DNA of 64,000 nucleotides from assembly GCA_903832085.1 (NCBI GenBank), contig CAIKZZ010000010.1:1-64000 (forward strand), written 5' to 3'. Under the pieces are notes generated by a model that was not told where the DNA came from, ran no database searches, and saw only the letters and a list, made by a program, of their open reading frames with translations. Positions 9,911 through 56,407 of this stretch are shown in pieces (the stretch's first letter is position 1; each line of letters begins with the position of its first letter). The translations under genes and the position numbers were made by a program. The DNA is from an uncultured Pseudomonadota bacterium. Lineage in GTDB: Bacteria; Pseudomonadota; Gammaproteobacteria; Steroidobacterales; Steroidobacteraceae.

Positions 9911-11923
9911 CTAATTACGATAGCGCTGCAATGCGTCACCCAATTGATCCCGTAATGGCGATAACCACGGCTCAAACGACTTCCAATGGTCTAAGCCCTC
10001 GCGATAAATGGGTTGGCGGACTTGTTCAGAACTCGCCGTACGCACGCTGCGCTGAGTCTTATGAAAATCCATGCAGGCGGCTTCGAACGGTAACCCACAA
10101 TGGCCTAACAGTCTGCGTATGCTGCCTTCTAGATCGTCGACCACATCTTCGTGCCACACCCGAAGAACCCGCCCCGGCAATACGTAATCCCAGTGCTCCA
10201 TTAAATCCAGATAGGTGCGATAGTAACGCGCGATATCTTCGACGCTATAACAAAATTCTTGACCCCGTGCGAAGAGTTGCTTGAGATTGCCAAAACAACA
10301 GGCCATCGGTTCACGGCGGGCATCAATAATGGTTGCGTTAGGGAACATCAGATGAATTAAACCGATATGACGAAAATTATTCGGCATCTTATCGATGAAC
10401 CGAGGCCGATTTGTCCGATAAACACGCGTGTCCTGCAGATACTGCTCAGCGTAGACTCGAAACTGATCTAACGGCAAATTCGCAAGCACGCCTGGATATC
10501 GCGGATTATCAAGATCCGGCTCACGACCCTGCAAATCGATAGCAATACGAGGCACATTAGCGAGCTCCTGGGTCCCCTCGACTTGCGAGTGCGAGGCAAG
10601 TATCTGCTCGAGCAAGGTCGAGCCAGACCGTGGCAGGCCTACAATAAATATTGGTTCACAACTCGCAACACCGGACTTTGCACGTGCGCTAAAAAAAGTC
10701 TGAGTACACACTTGCTTCTGGTTCGCGGTATTGAGCTCAATCACTTCTGGTCGGTATCTGCTTTCAGCGCGTTTTAGAGCGTTTCCACGCTGATAATATT
10801 CAAATGCCTGCGCGTAGCTCTTGCGATCCTCACAGCCCTTCCCCAAAGCGAATAGGAGATGGTATCGATCAACTACTGATGTGTCCGGGACGTCAACTGC
10901 TCGCCTTAGCTGCGCGAACTCCTCGTCAGTGATCCGGTATGTTTTGAGATTTGCAAGACTCCAATACGCATCGCCGAAATTGGGCCGTGCGCGTGCAGCG
11001 GAACGATAAGCTGCGATCGATTGCTCGCGCTGCCCCAAGGTCTTAAGTGAATGCGCAATCGAGAGGTGGAGCTCGGCTGTCTCGGGTGACTCAGCTTTTA
11101 GATCTGCCAGTAACGTCTGATATAAAGTGATCGCTCGCGCATGGTCACCAAGACCCACAACTGTAGTGGCATATAGCGTGCGATATTGCCGACTGTTAGG
11201 ATCCTTTGACAGCAGCATTTCGAGTTGGACCTGCGCCTCGACATGCTTGTGTCGATCGAGCAACACACAGGCATAATCCTGACGGGCCGCTAGATAATCT
11301 GGCGCTTTCTCGAGCACTGACCGCAACAGAAACTCAGCATCATCGTAGACCTCCAAGGCAGCCCCAATCCGCGCCAACAACCGCATTGCCTCAATATGAT
11401 CGCCATGTTGCAGTAGAAAATCTCTAACAAGTTTCTCAGCTCCGCCGAGATCGCCATCGGCAAATAGACCCATAGCCGTCAATAAAGGCGCTGGAACAAC
11501 TTGCAATCTCGCGACTTCGTCCGCTGCAACCGTCATGGCCACATTGTCGCCCACGATTCGGTACAATCCCTGCAACATGCTCCAGCTTGCCGGCAGCGCG
11601 GGATTTGCTTTGACCGCACTCCGAAATGAATCAATTGCGCGCGGGGCGTCTTTAAGCGCGACATAGCAGTGACCACGCTCTTGGTGCAGTCGGCTATAAC
11701 GGGGATGGAATTTCTCGAGAAGATCCAGAGTGCGCAGCGCTTCGCCTGGTTGACTTGACTGTCTCTGGCAGAGAGCTAACAGATAAAGTAGATCGCGATT
11801 TTCTGGCACGCTTTCTAATAGCACAGTCGCTGAGCGCATGGCATCACTAAACGCGCTTTGCCTTACGAGCACGCGTATCGATTGTACCTCGCGCTCAACG
11901 TCAGTCGTTGTTTGTCCAGTCAT
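9911..11923 (-). CDS. TPR-repeat sulfotransferase family protein
   Basis: A 670-residue fusion. The N-terminal 400 residues are tetratricopeptide repeats (for example DAPRAIDSFRSAVKANPALP and PNFGDAYWSLANLKTYRIT). The C-terminal part is a PAPS-dependent sulfotransferase domain beginning EPIFIVGLPRSGSTLLEQIL (5'-phosphosulfate loop, about residue 425), with ATIIDARREPMACC as the 3'-phosphate segment. It would transfer sulfate to a carbohydrate, peptide or small molecule. It converges with the transporter gene (2-base gap) and lies downstream of the TonB receptor on the same strand, a neighbourhood often seen with this type of enzyme. Acceptor unknown. Confidence 0.88.
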   Translation of the reverse strand: MTGQTTTDVEREVQSIRVLVRQSAFSDAMRSATVLLESVPENRDLLYLLALCQRQSSQPGEALRTLDLLEKFHPRYSRLHQERGHCYVALKDAPRAIDSFRSAVKANPALPASWSMLQGLYRIVGDNVAMTVAADEVARLQVVPAPLLTAMGLFADGDLGGAEKLVRDFLLQHGDHIEAMRLLARIGAALEVYDDAEFLLRSVLEKAPDYLAARQDYACVLLDRHKHVEAQVQLEMLLSKDPNSRQYRTLYATTVVGLGDHARAITLYQTLLADLKAESPETAELHLSIAHSLKTLGQREQSIAAYRSAARARPNFGDAYWSLANLKTYRITDEEFAQLRRAVDVPDTSVVDRYHLLFALGKGCEDRKSYAQAFEYYQRGNALKRAESRYRPEVIELNTANQKQVCTQTFFSARAKSGVASCEPIFIVGLPRSGSTLLEQILASHSQVEGTQELANVPRIAIDLQGREPDLDNPRYPGVLANLPLDQFRVYAEQYLQDTRVYRTNRPRFIDKMPNNFRHIGLIHLMFPNATIIDARREPMACCFGNLKQLFARGQEFCYSVEDIARYYRTYLDLMEHWDYVLPGRVLRVWHEDVVDDLEGSIRRLLGHCGLPFEAACMDFHKTQRSVRTASSEQVRQPIYREGLDHWKSFEPWLSPLRDQLGDALQRYRN

Positions 11924-45377: not shown

Positions 45378-46169
45378 CTATTTTGGACGCCCGGGAAAAA
45401 ATGCCGGCGTACGCCGAATGTAGTCCGCATACTGAGGACGACGCTCACCGATGTCTTTCTCCAGTAAGGCAACTCCAGAGACACGCAGCAGCAACACTGA
45501 CATCAATATCGGGCCGAGTACGCTCCACCAAGCGCCGGCAGACATTGCAAACGCGAAAAATCCCCACCAAACGCAACAATCACCAAAATAATTTGGATGA
45601 CGCGTGTAACGCCAAAACCCCCGATCCATGACTTTGCCAGCATTTGCAGGATTAGCTTGAAATCGAGCCAACTGCCAATCACCGCCCGCCTCAAATACGA
45701 AGCCGATCAGCCAGAGGAGCGCGGCCAATGCGTCGAGTGGGCCAAGCGGAGCGGCACCCAAAGCCGCACCAAGTAGCGGCAATGAAATAATCCACGCGAT
45801 CACCGCTTGCACCAAGAAAACACGGTACAGACTCTTTAGCGCAAAGTTTGGCTCATTTCGCGCCCGAATAGCCTGGTAGCGTCGATCCTCTCCATGACCT
45901 TTGTTGCGCCACGTAATGTATATCGATAACCGCAGTCCCCAGATGCAAAGCATGGCCAGTAATGCGATCTGCCGATCCGTCAACGATAACGCACCATGAT
46001 CAGTGGCGTCATAAACATAAACGAGCCCCTGCAATATAAAAAGCAGGGACCACAAACTGTCCACAATCGATACATTGCGCAAATACACGCTTAATGGCCA
46101 CACAAGAGCTGCCGCAGCAGCAGCGGCAAGAAGCCCATGAAAATAACTTTCCATCGAAAACATGCGCAT
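45378..46169 (-). CDS. DUF1295 membrane protein (steroid 5-alpha-reductase-like fold)
   Basis: A 263-residue protein with six or seven helices. The C-terminal cofactor region is RGFWRYTRHPNYFGDCCVWW, then LEKDIGERRPQYADYIRRTP, matching DUF1295 and the wider ICMT/5-alpha-reductase fold, which uses NADPH or SAM at the membrane face. The substrate is probably a lipid or isoprenoid, but this is family-level inference. It lies between an amidohydrolase and two quinohemoprotein genes on the same strand, with gaps of about 90-120 bases. Confidence 0.88.
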   Translation of the reverse strand: MRMFSMESYFHGLLAAAAAAALVWPLSVYLRNVSIVDSLWSLLFILQGLVYVYDATDHGALSLTDRQIALLAMLCIWGLRLSIYITWRNKGHGEDRRYQAIRARNEPNFALKSLYRVFLVQAVIAWIISLPLLGAALGAAPLGPLDALAALLWLIGFVFEAGGDWQLARFQANPANAGKVMDRGFWRYTRHPNYFGDCCVWWGFFAFAMSAGAWWSVLGPILMSVLLLRVSGVALLEKDIGERRPQYADYIRRTPAFFPGRPK

Positions 46170-50838: not shown

Positions 50839-51393
50839 GTGTTGCGCCTTAAAAATCTATGCTGTAGCGCTTCTTGGTTACGCAGGCCAATACTGCTCAC
50901 TGGCCTTTTACTGATAACGAGCACTTGGAGTTCTGCCAACGGACTCCAATCCCTGAAGCAAATTCGGGAACGTGGGGTTGTTATGCAACACTTTGAGATC
51001 AGCTGCGCTGCAGCAACCATAGCAACAGTGCTGACCTATGGCTTTCATGATGCGGTTGCAGAACGGCCTATTGCTGAGGGGATGCTTCGCTACACATCCG
51101 CCGCTAAAGTGAAATCTCAGGGCGGTTTTTCGATGCTCGATATGAAGCACGTGCTTGCAGATCGCGGTTATCATGCTGCCGCATATGGCAAACTCAGCCT
51201 TATCCAGCTCAAACTATTTCACGCGCCGATCGTCCCAATAGACAGTTTCGGAAATCATCACTACGTTGTTTTCAATGGCGTTCATGGTCAAAACGTACGT
51301 CTTGCAGATCCAGCATTTGGAAATCGCGAAATGCCGATAGACACTTTCACAAAACTTTGGATCGACGGACTTGCCTTTGTTGTAAGCAAATAG
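50839..51393 (+). CDS. Exported C39-family peptidase (FapD-like)
   Basis: 184 residues starting at GTG. A hydrophobic signal spans about residues 15-33 (RRPILLTGLLLITSTWSSA), so the enzyme acts in the periplasm without the ABC transporter to which C39 domains are often fused. The catalytic set is visible: Gln50, Cys56 (FEISCAAAT), His140 or His141 (GNHHYVVFNG) and Asp157 (RLADPAFG). Stand-alone exported C39 proteins include FapD, which processes functional-amyloid subunits in Pseudomonas. The next gene, 4 bases downstream, encodes a FapF-like outer-membrane protein. The substrate may be the small GG-motif peptide at 54879, but that is inference. Confidence 0.82.
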   Translation: MLRLKNLCCSASWLRRPILLTGLLLITSTWSSANGLQSLKQIRERGVVMQHFEISCAAATIATVLTYGFHDAVAERPIAEGMLRYTSAAKVKSQGGFSMLDMKHVLADRGYHAAAYGKLSLIQLKLFHAPIVPIDSFGNHHYVVFNGVHGQNVRLADPAFGNREMPIDTFTKLWIDGLAFVVSK

Positions 51394-51397
51394 ATCG

Positions 51398-52450
51398 ATG
51401 AAAAACACACTCTCTACTGTTTTAATATTAGTTACGTTATTAATGACTGGTACGCTTGCGCATTCAGCAGCACTGGAGCCTGTAAGTCCACCAGATGAAT
51501 TAGCGGCCCTACGTTTACAGCTCGCTGCACAACAAGCTATAAACCATGCTCTCCAAGAGCGCATTAACGCGCTTGAAACTGCGCTAGAAGAGCATGCTAG
51601 TGGCGCTTCAGAACAAAAATCTCTAGACGCGACTGCACCAGCACCTACAGACCTCGTGGCAACCGACACCAACACAGCAGTTGCACAATCACTGATTACA
51701 AAGCAGCTTTTGATACAAGCCCCTGGAACTATCCGCTTGACTCCAACCGCAAACTGGAGCCACTCTGGCGCACAAAGTGAGCACTATAATTATTCGCGTT
51801 TCGCCGTGGGCGTTGGCCTGGGATTACCTGCTGGACTCACCGCAACCGCTGTCATCCCCTACACCTTGGCCGATACCTACTATGGCTCGAACAGTGGCTT
51901 TGATGACCTTTCGCTTGCTCTGCAAAAGCAGTTTCTTGCTGAAACGACCCGTCTGCCAACGATTGTTGGCAGCTTGAACTTCACCAACAATACCAGCAAC
52001 AAAGCATTTCAGGATCCCTCGATTGGAGGGGCATTCAAATACTACGATCTCACTCTTTCGGCATTTAAGACGCTCAGCCCAGTTGTCATTTATGGCAATC
52101 TCTTTTATTCGCGCGCTGTAAAGCGGTACTTCGCCTTATATTATGAAAGCCCCTTCAACGGCACGATCCAACCGGGCGATACCAAGGGCATAAGTCTTGG
52201 CGTGTCACTCGCGGCGACACCCGCTATCTCAATTAATACAGGACTTACCTTCGATTTCGGACGCGGTACACGTTACGCGCGCGACGGCTTACCGGAATAT
52301 ACAGGCGCCGGAGTCACTGACGGCCGCCTGAGCCTAGGCGCTGGCTTTTTATTGACTAAACACTGGTTTCTCGGAATAACAGCCGAAGCCGGCGTCACCA
52401 AAGACGCATCGGACTTTATTTTCTCAATCGCACTACCCTATCGTTTTTAG
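51398..52450 (+). CDS. FapF-like outer-membrane beta-barrel with N-terminal coiled coil
   Basis: 350 residues. The signal peptide is 1-24. A coiled coil at about 34-67 (DELAALRLQLAAQQAINHAL) is followed by a Thr/Ala-rich linker (70-100). From about residue 110 amphipathic strands alternate with short turns, and the last residues SIALPYRF end in the terminal Phe typical of outer-membrane barrels. Coiled coil, linker and barrel in this order match FapF, the trimeric secretion pore for functional amyloid in Pseudomonas. It is coupled to the C39 peptidase gene (4-base gap) and converges on the GT41 gene. No FapA, B, C or E homologue is visible nearby. Confidence 0.75.
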   Translation: MKNTLSTVLILVTLLMTGTLAHSAALEPVSPPDELAALRLQLAAQQAINHALQERINALETALEEHASGASEQKSLDATAPAPTDLVATDTNTAVAQSLITKQLLIQAPGTIRLTPTANWSHSGAQSEHYNYSRFAVGVGLGLPAGLTATAVIPYTLADTYYGSNSGFDDLSLALQKQFLAETTRLPTIVGSLNFTNNTSNKAFQDPSIGGAFKYYDLTLSAFKTLSPVVIYGNLFYSRAVKRYFALYYESPFNGTIQPGDTKGISLGVSLAATPAISINTGLTFDFGRGTRYARDGLPEYTGAGVTDGRLSLGAGFLLTKHWFLGITAEAGVTKDASDFIFSIALPYRF

Positions 52451-52461
52451 GACAGCGCCTT

Positions 52462-54729
52462 TTATTGTGGCGTGTGGTCTATAGATGGGACATGTACATC
52501 AGCCAAATCGCCTGCTTGATAGGCAGCCGCAATCATTTGATATCCACGCTCTAAGTGCTGCGTGTGGCGTTTCACGTTGAACAGCTGACTAGTGGCAATA
52601 TTATCAAGACGTGACTTAAAGCCATTAAGAAGCTTCGGCTCCATAGCGAGCTTCACAGCATAGCTTACATAGGCATCTAGGTCCGTAACGATTAAGTCAG
52701 CTAGGCCTGCAGCAGTCAGAACGCTCGCACCCATGCGCGCTGCAAGCGTCTGTCCTAAGCAGGTCAGTACCGGCACACCAACCCGTAACGCATCGCTCGC
52801 CGCCGTCCCAGCACTATAGGGCTGCGTGTCTAGGTACAGATCAATCACTTTCAGTCGCGAAAGATATGCGTCTGGCGCCACTCGCTCAGCAAATACCAGA
52901 CGATCCAACGTGATTCCAGAACGCTGCGCTTCACGTCTTAGGTTTTCCACGACCTCATGGCTATCGGCATAGAGAAATAACATGGACCTTGGAACCCGAT
53001 CCAAGACGGTCATCCACGATTTAAAGACTTCCGGAGTCATTTTGTAATTGTTATTAAAACAACCATACACAAAAGCATCGTCAGAAAGGCCCAGTTCCTG
53101 CCTCGACGAAACGACCGGGGACACTAGTCTTTTCGAATCATTTGGCTGGTAGGTCGGCAGATAAAGTATGCGCTCCGTGTAGTATTTCCGCATTTGGGAC
53201 GGCACAAGTACAGGATCTGCGACCAAATAATCCATGAACGACGCGCCACTCGTGCCAAGGAAACCAAGGTAACTCACCTGCACGGGCGCGAGTCGCTTAC
53301 TAAATACTGCCGGGCGCGCACCCGCCGAAAAACCATTGAGGTCGACCGCAATATCGATCTGATGTCCCCGCATTTGTGCGACGACTTCTGAATCAGATAA
53401 CATATCAGCATCGATCCAGTGCTCAAAAGCAGTGCGAACACGCGTCTGCAGCGGGTCGTCAGGACTGCTCCGCAGTGACACAGCATATAGCTCGATCAAT
53501 GAGCGGTCATGGGTCTCGAATACCTCGGCCATTAGTAAAGACACAGCATGCGAACGAAAATCGCTAGATACATACGCAACGCGCAAGCGACGTCCGCTTA
53601 ATGGTGCGATTACAAGGCGGGTTTCATCACTTTCAAAGCGCTCAGCCCATATAGCAGCCGCTTGGCGCAGAACGTCTGGCTCCTTAACTAAGCTCAGTGC
53701 GCAGAAGGGAGGACATACTCGTTCTCCGGCCTTTATACCTTCGACAAGACGCTGCAAAGCAGCATCAGCACCGGCCCAATCGCATAATTTGAATTGAGAA
53801 TGCAGCAAAAGCCCAGGAACATCGTGCAGCGCGCTATCGAGCGCTAAGGCACGCCGAAAGCAAGTTATCGCCTTCGCGTGTAACTCGAGGTCCATCAGTA
53901 CGCCGCCTTGATTTCGAAGCGGGATGGCATCATTGATATCCATTCGGGCCGCTTGCTCATAGCACCTAAGGGCAGCCAGCCACTCCCCACGACACTGCAG
54001 GACCACCCCTTGCGCATTCAGCGCGACCGAGTCTTGGGGATTTAGCGTGAAGGCGCGCTCAAAGCTCGCCATCGCTAAAGCGAGATTGTGTTCTGCAAGG
54101 TAAAACGTGCCGAGTGCGCGGTGAATAGTGGCGGACTCCGGATCCAGTTCGACTGCACGCGATAGACTGCGCAAGGCTGCACTGGGACGCCCCATTTTCT
54201 GGCAGGTCAGAGCGTATCTCCAATGCAATTCAGCACTGGCAGGAGCTATATCGAGCGCCTCCTGAAAACAAAGCGCGGCTTCTGAAAACTTCTCTTCGGC
54301 ATGTAAAGATCGACCCAAGCCAAGCCGAGCTTCGATGTGCGCACGATCAAGTGCGTAAGCTTTTTTATATAGCGCTTTGGCTACTGACCAATCGTTTTGG
54401 TCAGCATGCAGATCGGCGAGTGCGGTATAGATAATGGCACTTGGTACATGCTTATTGAGAAACGCGGTCAGTAGAGACTTTGCTTTCTCTGACCCGCCCA
54501 CGGCGCGCGTCGCGGCGGCATAACCGCATAACGCGAGAGCATCGTGTGGCTCCCGCTCATGTATATATTGATAAGCTTTTAGTGCGAGCTGATGGTTACC
54601 TACACGCTCAGCCTTCTGCGCGGTTGCGTGCAGTGCATTTTGGGACGCTACGTCCCCACGATCAGCAAGCACCTGGCCGATAAAACGCAACCAGGACAGA
54701 GCTCTTCGGGAGAGGCTTAGTTTTAACAT
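52462..54729 (-). CDS. TPR-containing GT41 glycosyltransferase (O-GlcNAc transferase/SPINDLY-like)
   Basis: 755 residues. The first 350 are tetratricopeptide repeats (for example AKALYKKAYALDRAHIEARL and AALRSLSRAVELDPESATIH). The C-terminal 380 are the GT41 catalytic domain: RLRVAYVSSDFRSHAVSLLM, IDIAVDLNGFSAGARPAVF, PVQVSYLGFLGTSGASFMDY and the donor site LDTQPYSAGTAASDALRVGV. Such enzymes glycosylate Ser/Thr of proteins, often surface or secreted ones, from a UDP- or GDP-sugar. No signal peptide, so it acts in the cytoplasm. It lies between the FapF-like pore gene and the small Ser/Gly-rich peptide gene, making that peptide a possible acceptor. Confidence 0.88.
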   Translation of the reverse strand: MLKLSLSRRALSWLRFIGQVLADRGDVASQNALHATAQKAERVGNHQLALKAYQYIHEREPHDALALCGYAAATRAVGGSEKAKSLLTAFLNKHVPSAIIYTALADLHADQNDWSVAKALYKKAYALDRAHIEARLGLGRSLHAEEKFSEAALCFQEALDIAPASAELHWRYALTCQKMGRPSAALRSLSRAVELDPESATIHRALGTFYLAEHNLALAMASFERAFTLNPQDSVALNAQGVVLQCRGEWLAALRCYEQAARMDINDAIPLRNQGGVLMDLELHAKAITCFRRALALDSALHDVPGLLLHSQFKLCDWAGADAALQRLVEGIKAGERVCPPFCALSLVKEPDVLRQAAAIWAERFESDETRLVIAPLSGRRLRVAYVSSDFRSHAVSLLMAEVFETHDRSLIELYAVSLRSSPDDPLQTRVRTAFEHWIDADMLSDSEVVAQMRGHQIDIAVDLNGFSAGARPAVFSKRLAPVQVSYLGFLGTSGASFMDYLVADPVLVPSQMRKYYTERILYLPTYQPNDSKRLVSPVVSSRQELGLSDDAFVYGCFNNNYKMTPEVFKSWMTVLDRVPRSMLFLYADSHEVVENLRREAQRSGITLDRLVFAERVAPDAYLSRLKVIDLYLDTQPYSAGTAASDALRVGVPVLTCLGQTLAARMGASVLTAAGLADLIVTDLDAYVSYAVKLAMEPKLLNGFKSRLDNIATSQLFNVKRHTQHLERGYQMIAAAYQAGDLADVHVPSIDHTPQ

Positions 54730-54813
54730 TCGATGATCAGCACTTCAGATAATCTAACGGCTGAGCGCTTGTTCAGGCCATCATGGACATGGCTGCGATT
54801 ATCCACCAGCCGT

Positions 54814-54839
54814 AAAAAAAAGACCGACTCGCGCCGGCC
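54814..54839 (-). terminator. Rho-independent terminator of the small-peptide gene
   Basis: Read on the minus strand, GGCCGGC and GTCGGTC pair (7 pairs, two of them G-U) around a GCGA tetraloop and are followed by eight Ts. It lies 39 bases beyond the stop codon of the 73-residue peptide gene and separates it from the GT41 gene. This supports the small gene being a real, separate transcript. Confidence 0.85.
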
Positions 54840-54878
54840 TTAATTTCGTAGCAACATTCCCGACCGGGAACATTCTAC

Positions 54879-55100
54879 TTAATGGCGGTGATGCGAACCA
54901 CCGTCTGAGCCGCTGCCACCGCAGCTGCCTTTACCGGCGACGAACTTGCTCATTTCTGCATCTGTCAGAGCCGCCGCCTGATCCGACGAATCTACCGCAC
55001 GCGCAGTTGCCTGCTTATCAGCCGAATGGGCGAACGCAACGTTCGACACAGCAGCAACAAGCAATCCCGCTACCAAACCAAGTTTACGAACTAAACGCAT
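54879..55100 (-). CDS. Small secreted Gly/Ser/His-rich peptide with leader-like motif
   Basis: 73 residues. A Sec signal peptide (RLVRKLGLVAGLLVAAVSNV, cleavage near AFAHS) is followed by a polar segment, then ALTDAEMSKFVAGKG. This resembles the Leu/Glu/double-glycine motif of bacteriocin-type leaders cut by C39 peptidases. The last 15 residues, SCGGSGSDGGSHHRH, are Gly/Ser/His-rich with one cysteine. AGGAGA lies 7 bases before the ATG and a strong terminator follows. The family is not known to me. A secreted peptide processed by the nearby C39 peptidase is a reasonable hypothesis. A metal-binding or structural role is also possible. Confidence 0.75.
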   Translation of the reverse strand: MRLVRKLGLVAGLLVAAVSNVAFAHSADKQATARAVDSSDQAAALTDAEMSKFVAGKGSCGGSGSDGGSHHRH

Positions 55101-55291
55101 AATTTTATCTCCTGACTACTTACACTCTGGAAAGCCGCCCTCTTGTTAGGCGCCGGACTACCATTCATTTACTGCGACCTGCGTCACAATAGCAGGGAAA
55201 GTGATGAATTTGGAAATATTGATACTGAGGTCCAAGCCCTTTTGTATGATTTGGTGCGGAATATTTAACATAATCCTGTCACTAACCAGTT

Positions 55292-56407
55292 TTAACTAGG
55301 GATATCCCATACGCACCGGCGTTGCCACTCGGATACCGTAATGATCTCGCGAGCAGCGACATCCCATAAAATGCATTTAAGTGACGCAAGGACGCGGGAG
55401 AGCGGGATACGCACGACTTCTGCAAAGCGCGCTTCGTTTTTCCAGTGAAATGCGGCAAGCCGATAGTTTGGGATCGCTGTCGATAAATGGTGCACATGAT
55501 GAAATGCGATATCAAGCGTGAACCAATTTAACCACCGTGGGAGCAGCAAAAAACTTGTTCCATGAATAGCGCCCTCATCGACGTGCCATCCAGTCGTTGT
55601 GCTTGCATAGGATTTGTCAAAATTGTGCTGTACGGTAAATAGAACGATGCCAGCAGCGCCTGCTAGGGCAATAGACGCAAGACATATACCAACCACAAGC
55701 CCAGACCCACAGGCTCTGTAGACACAGACCCACATTCCTATGAAGACTATATTATGCAGCGACATATAGCGGAACTCTGCGGACGTTTTCCAGTAGCGCG
55801 TTTGATAGGTCGCCACGTGCGCTCGTAAAGAGTCGCGAGGACTAGCGATTTTCTGACGCAGCATATGCCAGCACAATCCAATGCTTCCGCGGAGCCATGT
55901 ATAGCGTGGATTAAAAACGAGATAGATAAACCCCGCAATCGGTGACGCATAGACGCTGCATTTCCAACGGTAGAATCGCTTGCTACCGGATGTCATAGCT
56001 GCGTACTCCGTTATAGAGCGAGTCGCATATGGCCCACGATATACCTCCCAGTCACCGTTATGCGCGTGATGATAGTCGTGATTCTTTGCCCAGACATATT
56101 GTGGCATTCCCGTCAGCACACCCAAGACAAATCCCATAATACGGTTTGTCGATCGATTCTTGAATAGACTGTAGTGACCACAGTCATGCATCAAAGTAAA
56201 AGCTCGTAAGGTGAATAAAGCGAGCACCGGAATTAAGGCAAGCAAAAGCCACACTGAAAAATTGACCGCTTTCGCGGCTAACCACCAGAGCATTACGATC
56301 GGCACTACAGTTGTCGCGACCTGAATGATCGCAATGTGATCCGCGGCAGCAAAATTCTTATCACGCAGAGCAATGCGCAAATGCCGGATGTCCTCGAAGA
56401 GTGCCAC
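55292..56407 (-). CDS. Membrane fatty acid desaturase
   Basis: 371 residues, GTG start with AGGAG upstream. All three histidine boxes are present: HDCGH (74-78), HDYHH (110-114) and HHVHH (303-307), which bind the di-iron centre. Hydrophobic pairs at about 30-68 and 215-260 place the boxes on the cytoplasmic face. It would introduce a double bond into an acyl chain, probably of membrane lipid, using a ferredoxin-type donor. It lies upstream of the small peptide gene on the same strand with 191 bases between, so a separate transcript is likely. Confidence 0.9.
   Translation of the reverse strand: MALFEDIRHLRIALRDKNFAAADHIAIIQVATTVVPIVMLWWLAAKAVNFSVWLLLALIPVLALFTLRAFTLMHDCGHYSLFKNRSTNRIMGFVLGVLTGMPQYVWAKNHDYHHAHNGDWEVYRGPYATRSITEYAAMTSGSKRFYRWKCSVYASPIAGFIYLVFNPRYTWLRGSIGLCWHMLRQKIASPRDSLRAHVATYQTRYWKTSAEFRYMSLHNIVFIGMWVCVYRACGSGLVVGICLASIALAGAAGIVLFTVQHNFDKSYASTTTGWHVDEGAIHGTSFLLLPRWLNWFTLDIAFHHVHHLSTAIPNYRLAAFHWKNEARFAEVVRIPLSRVLASLKCILWDVAAREIITVSEWQRRCVWDIPS

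Follow-up and report, generated by a model that had tools for sequence, protein, structure and literature searches.

A stand-alone C39 peptidase and FapF-like pore near a small Sec-exported peptide with a C39-type leader: a probable stripped-down relative of the Fap machinery

Introduction

The locus considered here couples a Sec-exported, stand-alone C39 peptidase to a coiled-coil outer-membrane barrel protein, and lies within a 64,000-nucleotide stretch of DNA (contig CAIKZZ010000010.1, positions 1 to 64,000; hereafter the window) from an uncultured member of the Steroidobacteraceae. Its closest described relatives are the Fap, Fil and PCAT-type systems. In Fap, as in the window, a periplasmic C39 peptidase (FapD) is found beside a coiled-coil barrel protein (FapF). 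According to the available text of PMC5557850, the target of FapD is unclear, the Fap proteins are without a canonical C39 sequence, and FapE is the sole Fap protein with complete N-terminal processing. The Fil system, a “putative pilus”, comprises FilA/DUF6160, the C39 peptidase FilB, FilC and FilD. The peptidase-containing ABC transporters PCAT1, ComA and LahT have the C39 fold, and the double-glycine peptides have the classical C39 leader register, -12/-8/-7/-4/-2/-1.

The window nevertheless differs from each of these. Its peptidase falls in a clade separate from the FapD-like and the Fil peptidases, and the predicted core of its putative substrate, a 73-residue peptide, is only 17 residues long and without amyloid repeats. 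In a Fil locus (L111; L and G numbers denote loci and genomes), the C39 gene likewise has as its neighbour a gene for a Sec-exported protein whose MDDAALAGVTGQ keeps the leader register, although the Fil substrate is a longer DUF6160 protein and a FadL-type transporter is added. In contrast to PCAT1, ComA and LahT, the window peptidase has a signal peptide and no transporter domain, and precursors of the window type bear a Sec signal ahead of the leader. The locus is interpreted here as a stripped-down relative of the Fap machinery with the 73-residue peptide as its probable substrate, which would be exported by Sec, cut by the periplasmic C39 peptidase and released through the barrel; we put the probability of this reading at roughly two in three. 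A preliminary description of the DNA had presented the locus as a candidate undescribed one for peptide export and modification, a term that has to be tempered, since the accessible text of PMC6173800 already reports fapD and fapF co-localised in five further phyla.

Sec-exported proteins with C39 leaders beside stand-alone C39 genes

The neighbours of stand-alone C39 genes repeatedly encode Sec-exported proteins that carry a second, bacteriocin-type C39 leader. This is a new result, and no description of Sec-exported proteins with C39 leaders was present among the matches listed for titles and abstract openings of the open-licence literature. Loci were gathered by the peptidase alone, regardless of substrates, and all 126 contain it. 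Set A comprises 80 loci of named genomes, kept out of at least 584 confirmed ones. Set B adds 40 from further genomes of the class, which were the best among 59 places (the 19 at or below 142.3 bits were omitted), and set C adds six from the family. Near-copies were retained (L070/L163, L034/L035 and five Pseudomonas loci). A strict leader open reading frame (ORF) had a signal-peptide-like start, judged throughout by a crude home-made rule, followed by the 12-residue pattern, and was scored as near when within 4 kb of the C39 gene and as far when more than 6 kb away. There were 138 such ORFs near C39 genes (in 906 kb) versus four far from them (in 589 kb), and the same motif in scrambled order gave ten near and eight far, hence no enrichment. 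The motif had been derived from sets A and C, with set B gathered afterwards as a test; set B alone yielded 27 near (297 kb) and none far (130 kb), with six and two for the scrambled motif.

The leader pattern can be written L-12, S/T-11, D-10, A-9, Q/E-8, L/M-7, D-6, V-4, T-3, A/G-2 and G-1, with AG endings in 96 and GG endings in 42 of the 138 ORFs; the lowest-scoring few of these are probably false positives. Ten leader-bearing proteins tested had no Pfam or NCBIfam model above cut-off. A loose motif, which also admits A, R, K or Q at -1 and was devised after inspection of Fap and Fil proteins, is noisier, with occurrences in 105/126 loci (191 near and 14 far) as compared with 53 near and 36 far, in 42 loci, for its scrambled version. 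The preliminary description had looked to a neighbourhood that recurs in other genomes, and this was found for the Sec-exported leader proteins, at least one strict leader ORF being present within 4 kb in 78 of the 126 loci (A 53/80, B 19/40, C 6/6), but not for homologues of the window peptide or for a link with the GT41 glycosyltransferase gene next to it.

The window peptide and its leader

In the window peptide, LTDAEMSKFVAG is followed directly by KGSCGGSGSDGGSHHRH, which is the AG form of the junction. With L-12, E-8, M-7, a hydrophobic residue at -4 and small residues at -2 and -1, the leader conforms to the C39 type, although as a weak member of the class. The scoring matrix was built from the 87 same-strand AG leaders among the 138 ORFs, from other genomes only and with the window excluded. 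The peptide leader scores 18.6 bits, which is reached by none of 938 signal-peptide-like null ORFs (best 13.5), and ranks first among the 81 signal-peptide-like ORFs of the window (runner-up 7.4 bits). The “leader-like motif” that had been noticed in the peptide is upheld by this score above every null ORF and provides the key to understanding the locus.

The ancestry of the peptidase is in agreement. In a tree of 127 peptidases, the window C39 pairs with that of Stutzerimonas stutzeri L032 (support 100/98) and lies in a set of 48 rows (97/97), of which 37 are labelled AG, one GG and nine none, the remaining row being the window itself. The labels take account of leader ORFs on the C39 strand only, and L042 and L055 are therefore labelled “none”. 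Fewer changes on the tree are needed for these labels than in any of 200 shuffles, an outcome that near-copies favour. Since the clade is mostly AG, an AG leader is expected for the window peptidase, and this matches the form found in the peptide. Among the other 47 loci of the set, a leader ORF lies within 5 kb in 40, a FapF-like barrel is encoded in 45, and both are present in 39. Four of the seven loci without a leader (L052, L059, L064 and L066) extend for less than 2 kb upstream of the peptidase, two (L034 and L035) are both from Edaphobacter lichenicola, with leaders ending in VTAA in L035, and the seventh (L057) is unexplained.

Bare trios of peptide, C39 and barrel genes occur in L032, L033 and L036. 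The Stutzerimonas stutzeri trio (L032:4887-15449) is situated amid copper-resistance-type genes (P-type ATPase, HMA, DUF411, multicopper oxidase and CopB), a setting that hints at a metal-related role, and the Methylocystis trio (L036:1186-7143), with a peptide of 86 residues, is flanked by two IS110-type transposases and is possibly a mobile module. Cys is present in all of the five nearest single-peptide loci as against 19/88, a post hoc comparison (p 8e-4) that serves as a lead only. A multi-substrate version, with five or six short VTAG-leader proteins per C39, is seen in L063, L049, L060 and L045 (three from Oxalobacteraceae and one alphaproteobacterial).

Several observations weigh against the peptide as the substrate of the pair. 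Its leader score is below the 10th percentile of the training leaders (23.2 bits; median 31.0), and its Ser at -6 and Phe at -4 are found in 6/138 and 0/138 leaders, respectively. The 17-residue core is shorter than all counted cores, the minimum being 26 residues in a doubtful opposite-strand ORF and the next shortest, and credible, core being 37 residues (L036). The peptide gene is outside the C39 operon, approximately 2.4 kb beyond the barrel gene and on the opposite strand, whereas 128/138 leader ORFs are on the C39 strand, and 48/126 C39 loci have no strict leader ORF inside 4 kb. A homologue search for the peptide across 119 further genomes of the family yielded nothing at E 0.001, only weak matches up to E 0.1, and the peptide has no Pfam or NCBIfam family above cut-off. 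A leader profile search of the own genome of the window was blank and missed even the window peptide, so that the profile is insensitive there and substrates encoded in trans could have been missed. In addition, the FapD and FapF scores of the pair are all under the NCBIfam cut-offs. The earlier proposal that the pair has been adapted to a very small substrate is thus retained in part: the peptide bears the leader type found beside such peptidases, in the AG form that fits the clade, but it is off the operon and without a homologue at E 0.001 in the family genomes searched.

If the peptide is the substrate, the precursor would cross the inner membrane by Sec and shed its signal peptide, and the propeptide would retain a second signal, the bacteriocin-type leader LTDAEMSKFVAG. 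The periplasmic C39 peptidase would then take up leader residues -12, -7 and -4 in its hydrophobic groove. It is predicted to cut after Gly56 and so free KGSCGGSGSDGGSHHRH, and the core would exit via the coiled-coil FapF-like pore. This core contains four Ser and one Cys, and its Cys and His may confer a metal-binding or other extracellular role. A Shine-Dalgarno-like AGGAG lies 5' of the peptide gene, and the gene possibly has its own transcript, because a terminator-like hairpin separates it from the GT41 gene; any single site of this kind is weak evidence, as 11 are present in 5.9 kb versus 6.2 in shuffles.

The peptidase and barrel pair

All of the gene positions in the preliminary description were borne out (Table 1), and the sequence agrees with the 4 bases that it gave between the C39 stop codon and the barrel ATG. 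The peptidase has a hydrophobic signal peptide after its GTG start, matches Pfam Peptidase_C39 (E 7.9e-12), and scores 84 bits with NCBIfam FapD (cut-off 330) and 78 bits with FilB (cut-off 475). Of the active-site residues proposed beforehand, Gln50, Cys56, His141 and Asp157 do not vary in two alignments (7 and 28 sequences, the window sequence included), whereas His140 does. The AlphaFold model of the peptidase (pLDDT 88) has the peptidase domains of PCAT1, ComA and LahT as its top PDB matches, and the modelled fold is that of a GG-leader peptidase. For the barrel protein, the model agrees with the predicted succession of signal peptide, coiled coil, linker and beta-barrel; the barrel is of the FapF type with a periplasmic coiled coil, FapF is the best structural match, and the short helix appears to sit at the position of the FapF plug. 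The likeness of the pair to FapD and FapF is thus supported, for the barrel by its model; for the peptidase, an intact active site and the modelled fold stand beside a FapD score far under the cut-off and a separate clade.

Table 1. Features of the window locus, with examples of FapE- and FapB-like proteins from other loci
Feature	Position	Strand	Basis
Sec-exported C39 cysteine peptidase of 184 residues, stand-alone and FapD/FilB-like, with GTG start	50839..51393	+	Pfam, NCBIfam, alignments, AlphaFold
FapF-like outer-membrane pore, 350 residues: signal peptide, coiled coil 32-68, linker, short helix 93-101, beta-barrel	51398..52450	+	
TPR-GT41 glycosyltransferase; neighbour, system membership not supported	52462..54729	-	Pfam PF13844, E 1.1e-69
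Hairpin resembling a terminator, located between the genes for the peptide and GT41	54820..54841	-	stem of 9 pairs (5 G-C) with a T tail; matched to the consensus only
Precursor peptide, 73 residues, probable substrate	54879..55100	-	sequence, leader score
Core KGSCGGSGSDGGSHHRH, predicted as the mature product (17 residues; unmodified mass 1622.6 Da)	54882..54932	-	predicted cleavage
C39-type leader motif LTDAEMSKFVAG, residues 45-56: L-12, E-8, M-7, F-4, A-2, G-1	54933..54968	-	
Sec signal peptide, residues 1-24, predicted cut between AFA and HS	55029..55100	-	crude rule and sequence
FapE-position proteins, examples with LSDPELAxMRG[RK]-like motif	L174:8698-9510; L170:7102-7968; L199:7105-7854; L104:10633-11361		
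FapB-like proteins, motif ending GA right before VNxAAG-type repeat	L181:10010-10699; L199:10032-10649; L186:9839-10477		

Fap and Fil proteins

A search of the whole genome for the Fap subunits FapE and FapB, which had been described as missing from the locus, gave no match to either. A FapE profile of the Fap clade (A6) had no match in the own genome and was positive in 4/4 controls, three of which were outside the profile. A second FapE profile of the RGG type (A5) likewise had no match, with 3/4 controls positive (G044 and G535, which contributed to the profile, and G102) and G617 missed. The FapB model NF058557 also gave none; it matched 4/4 chosen controls (one only at E 0.019), none of them above cut-off, and 0/14 named controls. 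There was no second FapF-like barrel in the own genome.

In the FapD-like clade, of which four members score 198, 241, 254 and 281 bits against NCBIfam FapD (cut-off 330), the protein in the FapE position directly downstream has an LSDPELAxMRG[RK]-like motif, in the same register, in 11/13 loci by the loose motif. When ten of these FapE-like proteins are aligned, Arg-Gly is the same in all and Leu-7 in nearly all. However, L186 and L194 are without the motif though a FapE profile finds FapE-like proteins in their genomes (G637 and G522), which argues against a strict rule. Proteins encoded upstream carry LNGNALSGVTGA or IDGHALAGATGA, and from their position and repeats we read them as FapB. 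Judged from sequence, these leader-register motifs offer FapE-like proteins as a candidate answer to what FapD cuts, and because FapE-like proteins share the leader register this target is testable. In the Fil-like clade, motifs such as MDDAALAGVTGQ are present in 9/13 loci, five of them Pseudomonas near-copies, and the leader protein of L111, the one tested, is a DUF6160 protein. No DUF6160 or FadL match was found among seven window proteins scanned around the pair.

These comparisons raise the possibility of a general two-signal route with a FapD-type peptidase and a FapF-type pore, in which Sec export is followed by a periplasmic cut at a C39 leader, and of which Fap (FapE, perhaps FapB), Fil, the VTAG clusters and the single-peptide trios would be branches; we regard the case for such a route as evenly balanced. 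If it is true, the target of FapD would be FapE, cut at MRG[RK], and the window would hold the smallest of the cases seen, with a 17-residue Cys/His peptide possibly serving as a secreted metal ligand or as a signal. From the leader register, substrates and cleavage sites can be predicted explicitly for a wide range of systems, FapE-like proteins included. The findings also suggest that a C39 leader can come after a Sec signal, so that leader searches tied to ABC transporters would miss such precursors. They point likewise to possible export, through a Fap-type pore, of peptides much too small for amyloid.

Alternative explanations

The pair might instead serve a substrate encoded elsewhere in the genome, with the 73-residue peptide an unrelated small secreted protein, as its off-operon and divergent gene and the insensitivity of the own-genome leader search would allow. 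This is considered unlikely, as the peptide leader scores above the 938 null ORFs and all other ORFs of the window, and its type agrees with the C39 clade. Still less likely is that the peptide is the substrate but first receives a sugar, on Ser or Cys, from the neighbouring TPR-GT41 protein ahead of Sec export. The four Ser and one Cys of the core are compatible with this, and two alphaproteobacterial metagenome-assembled genomes (MAGs) have a TPR-GT41 gene within leader-peptide arrays (L042:4327-9570 and L055:5171-9566), in an order and strand resembling the window, with leader peptide genes and then GT41 on one strand; Pfam confirmation of the GT41 assignment is for L055 only. In these two loci there may be occasional glycosylation, but it is no property of the system, since they are the only 2 of the 126 C39 loci (3.4 to 20.6 kb) with a GT41 gene. 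A separate leader peptide gene is next door in 0/48 GT41 relatives, where the single match reads as a portion of the GT41 protein. In the family, TPR/GT41 matches are widespread (114/120 genomes), and the terminator-like hairpin lies between the peptide and GT41 genes. The preliminary description had rightly identified the TPR-GT41 and desaturase genes, as Pfam agrees (PF13844, and PF00487 at E 5.6e-25), but their place in the system was not borne out, there being a desaturase gene in 0/126 C39 loci. A glycosylation/desaturation module as a general feature was rejected on these locus counts.

It is improbable that the role of the peptidase is to process or gate the barrel, or to serve as a chaperone, with the peptide left uncut. 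Cleavage of FapF is left open in the available text of PMC5557850 and a possible chaperone role is mentioned in that of PMC6173800, whereas the window peptidase retains every catalytic residue (Gln, Cys, His and Asp) and leader proteins track the peptidase. Hardly any weight is given to the idea that the peptide is a periplasmic metal peptide, unrelated to C39 and matured instead by an MNIO enzyme. In being small, Sec-exported and Gly/Ser-rich, with Cys and His, it may resemble methanobactins and bufferins, but it has a C39 leader. The MNIO candidate was rejected because PF05114 had no match in the own genome (98.89% complete), while the same search was positive in 2/14 control genomes. The reading of the peptide as substrate of the C39 and barrel pair is preferred to each of these.

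Occurrence in the family and genus

Matches to the peptidase were found in 11/120 genomes of the family, the own genome included, three of them within long frames (864, 622 and 1061 residues). Among eight other sampled genomes of the genus, G023 alone has a match, and its pair is a remnant (L207:8786-9368; also L010) in which the N-terminal part of the peptidase (profile E 1e-16) runs on into the C-terminal part of the barrel (E 1.5e-12). Over 18.5 kb there, neither a leader peptide nor a GT41 or desaturase match is present. The C39/barrel pair is thus patchy and prone to loss. The closest C39 relative among the matches listed is from a pseudomonad (59% identity), which hints at lateral transfer of the pair. 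G023 also has a gene 64% identical to window positions 45378-46169, approximately 4.5 kb off as in the window, with a different orientation.

Further afield, C39 matches are present in 28 plasmid records, every one below 60% identity. The C39 locus L098, from a MAG labelled Candidatus Bathyarchaeota, nests with proteobacterial loci and is probably contamination or a mislabelled bin. Elsewhere in the window, positions 9911-11923 encode a TPR protein with a C-terminal region that is sulfotransferase-like by eye.

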